Shown in pieces: positions 2,369 through 3,597 of a stretch of DNA of 64,000 bases. Below the pieces are notes generated by a model. That model saw nothing but the letters and a program-made list of their open reading frames with translations. It was not told where the DNA came from and did not search any database. This DNA is from Prevotella sp. (GTDB lineage: Bacteria; Bacteroidota; Bacteroidia; Bacteroidales; Bacteroidaceae): positions 1 to 64,000 of the forward strand of contig JAFZIZ010000016.1 in the NCBI GenBank assembly GCA_017554145.1, read 5' to 3'. Position 1 is the stretch's first letter. Each line of letters begins with the position of its first letter. Both the position numbers and the translations under genes were made by a program.

Positions 2369-2441
2369 GTTAAATTTTTGTTATTTCTTTCCCTTTAGTC
2401 GATGATTGAAGGGGATTTCATCCGTTAATGCTCAATCGCAT

Positions 2442-2472
2442 TTGGTGGGTTGGAATAAATGTTGTAACTTCG
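2442..2472 (+). promoter_or_regulatory. Possible promoter of the transposase gene
   Basis: TTG at 2442-2444, 20 bases, then TAACTTCG at 2465-2472. The -7 box has C instead of T at one conserved position. It lies 12 bases before the ATG at 2485 and therefore favours that start over the in-frame ATG at 2428. Confidence 0.35.
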
Positions 2473-2484
2473 CGCTTCAATATG

Positions 2485-3597
2485 ACAGAAGAGCAGATTG
2501 CAGAGAAGAAGAAACATGCGGGGGAAAAGAAAACCTCGATGAAACGTCGTGATGACTATCACGACTATACAGAACGGCGCATGTATATGATTACCTTGGA
2601 GGTAGAAGGGCGGCGACCTCTGTTTGGAAAGATCGTGGGCGATGCCTTTGCTCCGCAAGGTAGCAAAGACGAGCCTCGTATAGAACTGACAGAACTGGGG
2701 AAGGTGGTACAGAGTGAATGGCTCGGCATTCATGGCTACTATCCGCAGATTGAGGTGAAGGCTGTGCAGATGATGCCTGACCACATGCATGGCATCCTCT
2801 TTGTGAGAGATAGGCTGCCCGTGCACCTAGGGCAAGTGATTTCCGGCTTTAAAGCAGGATGCAGAAGGGCGGAGAAGGCTTTGATTGCTGCGGTAGAACC
2901 GCAGCCTGCGGGAAAGAAAGCCTTGATTGCTGCGGAAAAGCCGCAGCCTACGGAGAAGATGGATGGTTATCTGCAGGTGTCGGCTTTGCCGTCACGAGAG
3001 TATCGCCCACTTTTCGCCAAAGGCTATAACGACTTGATACTCCGCTCCTACGATGAACTTCCTACTTGGTTGAATTATCTACATGATAACCCGAGGCGAT
3101 TGATGATGAAGCGCACTCGCCCAGAGTGGCTACATCCTTTCTTTGATTTCCGTATAGGAAAGCACTGCTATAGCGGTATAGGGAATCGTAACTTACTAAC
3201 GGCTCCGAAACGAATGGCAGTCCGTGTGTCACGACGGCTTAGCGAAACTGAGATATTATCAGTAATGGCGCAATATCTTGAAGAGGCCAGAAAGGGGGCG
3301 GTGCTTGTATCTCCAGCCATTTCTCCTGGTGAGAAGCGAGTGATGAGGGCAGCATTTGATGCAGGTTTACCGACTATCGTGATTATGGAAAACGGTTTTA
3401 CGTCTTTGTCAAAGCCTCATGGTGAGCAGTTTTATGCTTGTGCCAAAGGATTATTGCTGATGCTTTCGCCATGGGAGCATCATAATGAGAAGCGCAAACT
3501 TACAGCCGAACAATGTAAACAGATGAATCTGATGACGTTGGATTTATGCGAGATTCATCATCACGGCTGTGAAGATGCGACCAGAATTGATGCCTAA
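2485..3597 (+). CDS. REP-associated tyrosine (Y1/HUH) transposase with extra C-terminal domain
   Basis: Single-strand DNA transposase of the IS200-like/RAYT class. Numbered from an in-frame ATG at 2428, the HUH motif MPDHMHG lies at 117-122 and the candidate catalytic Tyr in NYLHDNPRRL at 217. That N-terminal 19 residues would precede the start chosen here, MTEEQ at 2485, which follows a promoter-like sequence. Between the two motifs sits a duplicated 14-residue segment (ALIAA..PQP) encoded by a 42-bp tandem repeat with palindromes. Residues 262-375 form a second domain (LVSPAISPGEK, GLPTIVIMENGF, GEQFYACAKG) that looks like a SLOG/DprA-type Rossmann fold and is not part of the basic transposase. 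The last 18 codons overlap the 3' end of pgeF tail to tail. No flanking IS ends were identified, so it is probably a domesticated single-copy gene. The transposase domain is a firm call; the second domain is inferred from pattern only. Confidence 0.75.
   Translation, partial: TEEQIAEKKKHAGEKKTSMKRRDDYHDYTERRMYMITLEVEGRRPLFGKIVGDAFAPQGSKDEPRIELTELGKVVQSEWLGIHGYYPQIEVKAVQMMPDHMHGILFVRDRLPVHLGQVISGFKAGCRRAEKALIAAVEPQPAGKKALIAAEKPQPTEKMDGYLQVSALPSREYRPLFAKGYNDLILRSYDELPTWLNYLHDNPRRLMMKRTRPEWLHPFFDFRIGKHCYSGIGNRNLLTAPKRMAVRVSRRLSETEILSVMAQYLEEARKGAVLVSPAISPGEKRVMRAAFDAGLPTIVIMENGFTSLSKPHGEQFYACAKGLLLMLSPWEHHNEKRKLTAEQCKQMNLMTLDLCEIHHHGCEDATRIDA
2870..2953 (+). repeat. 42-bp tandem repeat with two REP-like palindromes inside the transposase gene
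   Basis: Two copies with a 42-base period. Each carries the same 7-bp stem: GCTGCGG 2887-2893 with CCGCAGC 2899-2905, and GCTGCGG 2929-2935 with CCGCAGC 2941-2947. Loops are 5 bases (TAGAA and AAAAG). The unit is a multiple of three and keeps the frame open. Confidence 0.8.

Follow-up and report, generated by a model that had tools for sequence, protein, structure and literature searches.

The window, a 64,000-nucleotide stretch of Prevotella sp. DNA (assembly GCA_017554145.1, contig JAFZIZ010000016.1, positions 1 to 64,000), contains a gene related to the RAYTs, the transposases associated with repetitive extragenic palindromes (REPs), which carries three DNA hairpins in frame between its two catalytic motifs. 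We favor, with a probability of about 0.6, the reading that these hairpins are the gene's own cognate REPs, lodged in a tolerant linker and preserved as a DNA structure through compensatory change. In most relatives, a hairpin is retained at the corresponding place in the gene even though its letters change, which suggests that the hairpin structure itself, rather than the letters, is being preserved.

A RAYT-like gene with hairpins in its linker

The gene and its elements are located as follows (window coordinates):

2428..3597, + strand: RAYT-like gene of the HuH/Y1 transposase family; open reading frame (ORF) of 389 residues from the first ATG, with a probable real start at ATG 2482
2779..2790, + strand: HuH motif DHMH, residues 118-121; D118, H119, and H121 are invariant in 39 aligned sequences
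2845..3015 (limits approximate), + strand: hypervariable linker between the HuH and Tyr motifs, holding hairpins here and in relatives
2873..2914, + strand: 42-nt unit 1
2915..2956, + strand: 42-nt unit 2, in tandem and in frame, 81% identical to unit 1
2887..2905, + strand: hairpin A1, GCTGCGGT.aga.ACCGCAGC, with an 8-bp stem and a 3-nt loop
2906..2909, - strand: foot of A1, CTGC; by direct reading, GCAG 5' of the hairpin on the antisense strand
2929..2947, + strand: hairpin A2, with a 7-bp stem and a 5-nt loop
2948..2951, - strand: foot of A2, CTAC; on the antisense strand, GTAG directly 5' of the hairpin, the REP tag given in the consulted parts of PMC6006769 and PMC8266576
2977..2995, + strand: hairpin B, with loop ttt and 7 of 8 pairs; GCAG at its 5' foot (2973-2976) on the + strand
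3076..3093, + strand: Tyr motif Y217-L-H-D-N-P; Y217, D220, N221, and P222 are invariant in the 39 aligned sequences
3181..3552 (limits approximate), + strand: C-terminal domain, weakly DprA-like

The gene probably starts at ATG 2482 and not at the first ATG, 2428, because most close relatives (among the matches listed) align from about residue 17-19. The 39 sequences combine the HuH motif with a single catalytic tyrosine in a Y---NP context, the signature of RAYT class 2. All 39 match REP_Tyr_transpos (NCBIfam NF047646) at E ≤ 0.001 (best 3.3e-12), the window protein scoring 28.5 bits, under the 80-bit cut-off; these matches support the first-pass annotation's reading of the gene as a relative of the REP-associated transposases. 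Pfam Y1_Tnp is matched by 16 of the 39 members at E ≤ 0.1, the window protein not among them, and a search of solved structures returned 7 sequences at E 0.17 or worse, 5 of which are transposases. The protein extends approximately 165 residues beyond the Tyr motif, and its C-terminal domain may bear a faint likeness to DprA (PF02481 in 1 of the 39 members; hhalign E 0.0017, probability 15%). The linker between the HuH and Tyr motifs varies greatly in length among relatives. Relatives at 49 named loci belong mostly to Prevotellaceae and to Prevotella or Bacteroidales metagenome-assembled genomes, several of them from ruminants, and the window genome (2.8 Mb in 38 contigs, 83.5% complete) is that of a Prevotella-related gut bacterium. 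Comparison with plasmids gave no match and comparison with phages a single weak, partial one.

The first-pass annotation had also described two in-frame 42-bp units sharing identical 7-bp arms, GCTGCGG/CCGCAGC, and we find both, at 2873-2914 and 2915-2956. The pattern GCTGCGG-N5-CCGCAGC occurs exactly twice in the window (mean of 0.00 in 100 shuffles), and none of the 8 differences between the units falls within the 14 arm positions (P = 0.026). The arms of A1 and A2 are identical over 7 bp, although A1 is better described as an 8-bp stem with a 3-nt loop. Folding of positions 2880-3000 as single-stranded DNA gives z = -3.6 for the + strand and -4.5 for the - strand, and the centroid structure on both strands consists of three hairpins, which correspond to A1, A2, and B. 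Hairpin B is opposite in orientation to A1 and A2, because its GCAG foot is on the + strand. The anatomy is that of REPs, as annotated, with a REP-type GTAG or GTGG foot 5' of a GC-rich hairpin at A2 and GCAG at A1 and B, that is, in 1 of 3 cases.

The hairpin is conserved while its sequence changes

The comparison across homologues started from 95 stretches, 83 of which have an intact HuH-Tyr core by a motif filter, corresponding to 82 distinct genes. The sample represents one genus; some stretches were chosen for long linkers, one, L159, was added through a hairpin search, and the others were picked by similarity among the matches listed. The window clade has two hairpin sites, A and B, and the linker and stem counts use the best-scoring or the first, some counted rows being site B (at least L017, L037, and L042).

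A perfect hairpin with 8-bp arms and a 3-nt loop (8-3-8) is present in the linkers of 51 of the 82 genes, compared with 124 of 16,400 synonymous-codon permutations (0.8%) and 2 of 403 equal-length control windows elsewhere in the same genes (0.5%). With at most one mismatch, a hairpin is found in 71 of 82 linkers versus 1,614 of 16,400 permutations (9.8%) and 32 of 403 control windows (7.9%), and with stems of at least 7 and loops of 3-7, in 58 of 82 linkers versus 21 of 403 control windows. Taken singly, 52 of the 82 genes reach a permutation p ≤ 0.05. Within the window clade, 10 of 21 genes have a perfect hairpin and all 21 have one with at most one mismatch; the corresponding numbers for the other genes are 41 and 50 of 61. 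Hairpin B averages 7.1 of 8 pairs across the 21 genes of the window clade versus 5.3 expected, with only 6 pairs in 4 of the 21, in a scan that scored the window row at A2 instead of B.

The stems themselves occur in 20 different, fully compensated 8-bp versions, 7 in the window clade and 13 in the rest. The 7-nt inner left arms include TTGCGAC, TTGCTGT, TTGCGTT, TTGAGGC, CTGAGGC, CTGTCTT, CTGCAAC, and CTGCGGC, each matched by its right arm; between genes, a left arm fits the right arm of the other gene in only 202 of 2,550 ordered pairs. On a quick core-protein tree of 54 rows, at least 24 stem changes are counted, with no shuffle comparison. Sister genes, such as L026 and L034, differ by one compensated pair, and stem types also switch between close relatives. 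Different linker peptides (VEAVPQ, VAVIQQQ, and AAxPQP) are all palindrome-encoded. The hairpin lies at a median of 41 residues past the HuH motif in both groups (range 35-93), its loop is a tri-loop in 54 of 58 cases, and the loop center falls in one codon phase in 53 of 58.

These results do not bear out the first-pass suggestion that the palindromes are targets newly inserted into the gene: because the same linker holds a near-perfect hairpin in 71 of 82 homologues, and mostly in a single codon phase, the hairpin is old. A recent double insertion into the window gene was likewise rejected, given how common the linker hairpin is across the family and the tandem arrangement of the second copy. 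This second copy looks like a tandem duplication, since the closest relative, L007 (among the matches listed), has one unit. The number of hairpin units differs between species. The unit is repeated in tandem, or the hairpin recurs exactly at the ORF's 3' end, in L043, L025, L051, L203, L210, and L211, with L043 containing five hairpins spaced in 84-nt steps.

Copies elsewhere in the genome and in relatives

No exact copy of GCTGCGG-N5-CCGCAGC was found in the window's own genome, an 83.5% complete assembly, beyond the two in the gene. The first-pass annotation had staked its reading on further copies of the hairpin and on a segment that is not simply an ancient, non-palindromic part of the protein, and the outcome is divided: there is no further exact copy and the segment is old, but the segment stays palindromic in relatives. 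At up to two mismatches, the pattern occurs at 10 places, compared with 1 for a reversed control pattern. The 8 inexact places among these include L188, a perfect 7-bp hairpin inside a 639-residue ORF, and L186, with a 6-bp stem. A paralogue of the gene (C3:197174-198214) carries in its linker the genome's only exact GTTGCGAC hairpin, a type with 3 inexact places versus 2 for its reversed control; one of the 3, L192, forms a perfect 7-bp hairpin outside any ORF of at least 120 residues. Neither stem type has an exact copy outside the RAYT genes of this genome. No similar hairpin lies in the flanks of the window gene, which lacks the flanking cognate REPs that define a REPtron, and the many dispersed, mostly extragenic copies that characterize a REP are not seen in this genome.

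Relatives provide such copies in part. Among the 54 genes with a tri-loop hairpin, 12 repeat their own stem exactly at a site other than the linker; in 8 this site lies at most 141 nt beyond the coding region and in 4 it is near the 3' end of the same ORF, so that the flanking cognate REPs of a REPtron are present for part of the family (8 of 54 relatives). The gene of genome G145 contains a TTGCGAC hairpin and is flanked by two more, 50 nt upstream and 51 nt downstream, and copies of this hairpin number 17 in G145 and 16 in G251. The GCTGCGG hairpin has 41 copies in G177, most with a CCGTAT foot, and 21 of the 26 examined are in no ORF of at least 150 residues; the hairpin is thus dispersed in this genome as expected of a REP. 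Internal and dispersed copies usually have a common foot, GTnTG, the orientation of the dispersed copies in this comparison being set by the best match to the foot. Judged from these sequences, stem and foot are common to the in-gene hairpin and to neighboring or dispersed copies in some relatives. The linker hairpin in the relatives is a REP.

At the level of genomes, the hairpins tend to accompany the gene: TTGCGAC hairpins are present in 62 of 159 genomes with a homologue (among the matches listed) versus 11 of 140 without, and GCTGCGG hairpins in 54 of 159 versus 8 of 140, counts that take in in-gene copies and some unrelated matches. CTGAGGC hairpins occur in all 6 genomes whose sampled RAYT has that stem, 3 of which have one copy only, and in none of 10 others. 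For the TTGCGAC-type internal hairpin, the in-gene copy is the sole exact one in 8 of 12 genomes; together with the window's own genome, these cases show that the in-gene hairpin can be retained where no exact dispersed copy exists. Such retention is the strongest argument against simple reinsertion, within the limits set by incomplete assemblies and exact matching.

The literal window pattern was rejected as a measure of REP number: many GCTGCGG-N5-CCGCAGC sites elsewhere read as CCGxAAA codons, likely in lipoprotein or signal peptides, and therefore not all counts of the pattern are REPs. GCTGCGG palindromes in apparent lipoprotein signal peptides (L058, L060, L068, L073, and similar loci) are probably a codon effect that inflates the counts. 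The TTGCGAC matches L085, L097, L107, and L111, which are paired approximately 110 nt apart in one kind of ORF, look unrelated and were also set aside.

Dispersed cognate hairpins in G251 and G145 are also found in frame within conserved genes (L130, L131, L142, L145, L149, L154, L161, L162, and others), with 19 of 20 host ORFs scanned matching a family; the hosts include IleRS, TopB, HutU, MnmG, UvrA, FGAM synthase, and HisRS. By reading, the hairpins of 23 host ORFs are spread over the three phases as 12, 10, and 1, the last being a doubtful ORF. The IleRS loop that holds the hairpin (L295-L324) is 21 residues long in G251 and 20 residues long in 17 of 25 genomes read (range 18-24), and IleRS genes L305, L308, L311, and L315 have, again by reading, apparent hairpin remnants at the same spot as the full G251 hairpin; this loop is a possible hot spot for the hairpin.

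Two further hairpins were seen in the window: a perfect 8-bp hairpin with a 4-nt loop (GTCGTGAT.gact.ATCACGAC) at 2546-2565, in the N-terminal coding part of the gene and unlike the linker hairpins, and an AT-rich 11-bp hairpin (AAATAAATATA/TATATTTATTT) at 156-181, near the left end.

Alternative explanations

Several observations weigh against the hairpins being cognate REPs preserved as structure. The feet of A1 and B are GCAG rather than GTAG. For the window gene alone, the synonymous-codon permutation gives only p = 0.035. Near-perfect linker hairpins are absent from 11 of 82 genes, and the hairpin is therefore not kept in all homologues; a third homologue in the window's own genome, L005 (C19:71726-72727, on the window's contig, outside the window), has no linker hairpin. 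The related perfect hairpins L188 and L192 imply that old dispersed copies may exist in the own genome. The genome counts are affected by the in-gene and unrelated matches they include and by the single-copy CTGAGGC genomes, and may be confounded by GC content and incomplete assemblies. Finally, the peptide encoded there shows partial conservation (AAxPQPTEK or VATxSQQT), and selection at the protein level may therefore contribute.

The main rival explanation, which we judge unlikely, is that the linker is a permissive site that repeatedly receives in-frame insertions of dispersed REPs and exchanges them for others, the embedded copy having no function. In G251 and G145, cognate hairpins have lodged in frame in numerous core genes unrelated to one another, which speaks for this explanation, as do the great variation in linker length, the switching of stem types between close relatives, the possible old dispersed copies L188 and L192, and the little effect on the protein suggested in the consulted parts of Quentin et al. 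2018 (PMC6006769). Lodging without function accounts less readily for the codon phase, which is the same in 53 of 58 in-gene hairpins compared with 12, 10, and 1 for dispersed hairpins in the 23 host ORFs, for the persistence of hairpins in genomes without a second exact copy, and for sister genes such as L026 and L034 that differ by a compensated pair.

The hairpin lies in coding sequence and hence would be present in the message, where it might be kept for message stability, translation pausing, or autoregulation through RNA binding rather than as a DNA substrate. We consider this improbable: among hairpins with a single mismatch on the coding strand, G.T (5) is not commoner than A.C (9; other mismatches, 6), which, small as these numbers are, gives no sign of selection via RNA wobble pairs; no Rfam match was found at the hairpins, with one sub-threshold match elsewhere; and the foot and the match to neighboring and dispersed copies point to a DNA substrate. 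More improbable still is that conserved linker peptides rich in Ala, Pro, and Gln happen to use palindromic codons, through protein-level selection or codon bias. The recurrence of AAxPQPTEK and VATxSQQT speaks for it, but peptide-preserving permutation yields a perfect 8-3-8 hairpin in 0.8% of cases versus 62% observed, and peptides as distinct as VEAVPQ, VAVIQQQ, and AAxPQP are all encoded by palindromes.

Possible roles of the embedded hairpin

By analogy with characterized TnpAREP enzymes, which, according to the parts of PMC8266576 consulted, bind REPs that are folded, single-stranded, and preceded by a GTAG foot and cleave them, the protein probably recognizes the hairpin in its own gene. 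Recognition would take place while the gene is in single-stranded form, for example at the lagging strand. The embedded hairpin could then act as a resident copy that keeps the enzyme and its type of substrate together once dispersed copies have disappeared; it may in addition offer the protein a binding site in its own gene or message, a possibility raised in the first-pass annotation. Of these roles, we consider that of a resident cognate copy the likeliest and self-binding a second possibility. A broader proposal, to which we give less than even odds, is that an entire clade of transposase-like genes harbors, in the coding sequence, a co-evolving copy of the enzyme's substrate, which would serve as both a resident template and a self-binding site, outlast every dispersed copy, and change its stem "password" by compensated steps.

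These findings touch on how RAYTs stay matched to their REPs and on why domesticated transposases persist. A gene that contains its enzyme's probable substrate, in many cases with no other exact copy of the stem, makes both questions testable. The findings also point to a coding sequence under double constraint, from the protein and from a changing DNA hairpin.

Comparison with known systems

The intragenic GTAG/CGTC REPs and Rickettsia palindromic elements (PMC3733652, consulted in part) resemble the hairpins described here in being short in-frame palindromes in unrelated genes, many of the host genes in that work being repair or replication genes. In the window family, by contrast, the hairpin also occupies one linker of the transposase gene itself. 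REPtron Sm of Stenotrophomonas maltophilia offers a functional REP of the same build, with a perfect 8-bp stem, a 3-nt loop, and a GTAG foot; its enzyme, unlike the window family, is a group 3 proteobacterial one, and no in-gene REP is described in the consulted parts of that paper (PMC8266576). By title or opening of the abstract, the literature on RAYT/TnpAREP and on intragenic palindromes in Prevotella, few subscription journals being covered, contained no report on the present DHxH family.

The closest parallel is TnpAREP subclass 2.4. In the parts of Quentin et al. 2018 (PMC6006769) covered, in-frame REPs within tnpAREP between HuH and Y are described as unique to this subclass, and no test of conservation or compensation of the embedded hairpins was found. 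The window family resembles subclass 2.4 in having in-frame REPs between HuH and Y, in the GT-type feet on both sides ("double foot") of some hairpins, and in Bacteroidetes being among the hosts. According to the same parts of the paper, the core of subclass 2.4 has no extension past the Tyr and its motifs are NH[IFV]H and YIxNNP, whereas the motif of the window family is DHxH and its C-terminal domain is long and conserved; because of its approximately 165 residues past the Tyr motif, DHMH, and YLHDNP, we did not file the window gene under subclass 2.4. In-gene REPs are thus already known for TnpAREP subclass 2.4, and the window family differs by its DHxH motif and long C-terminal domain.
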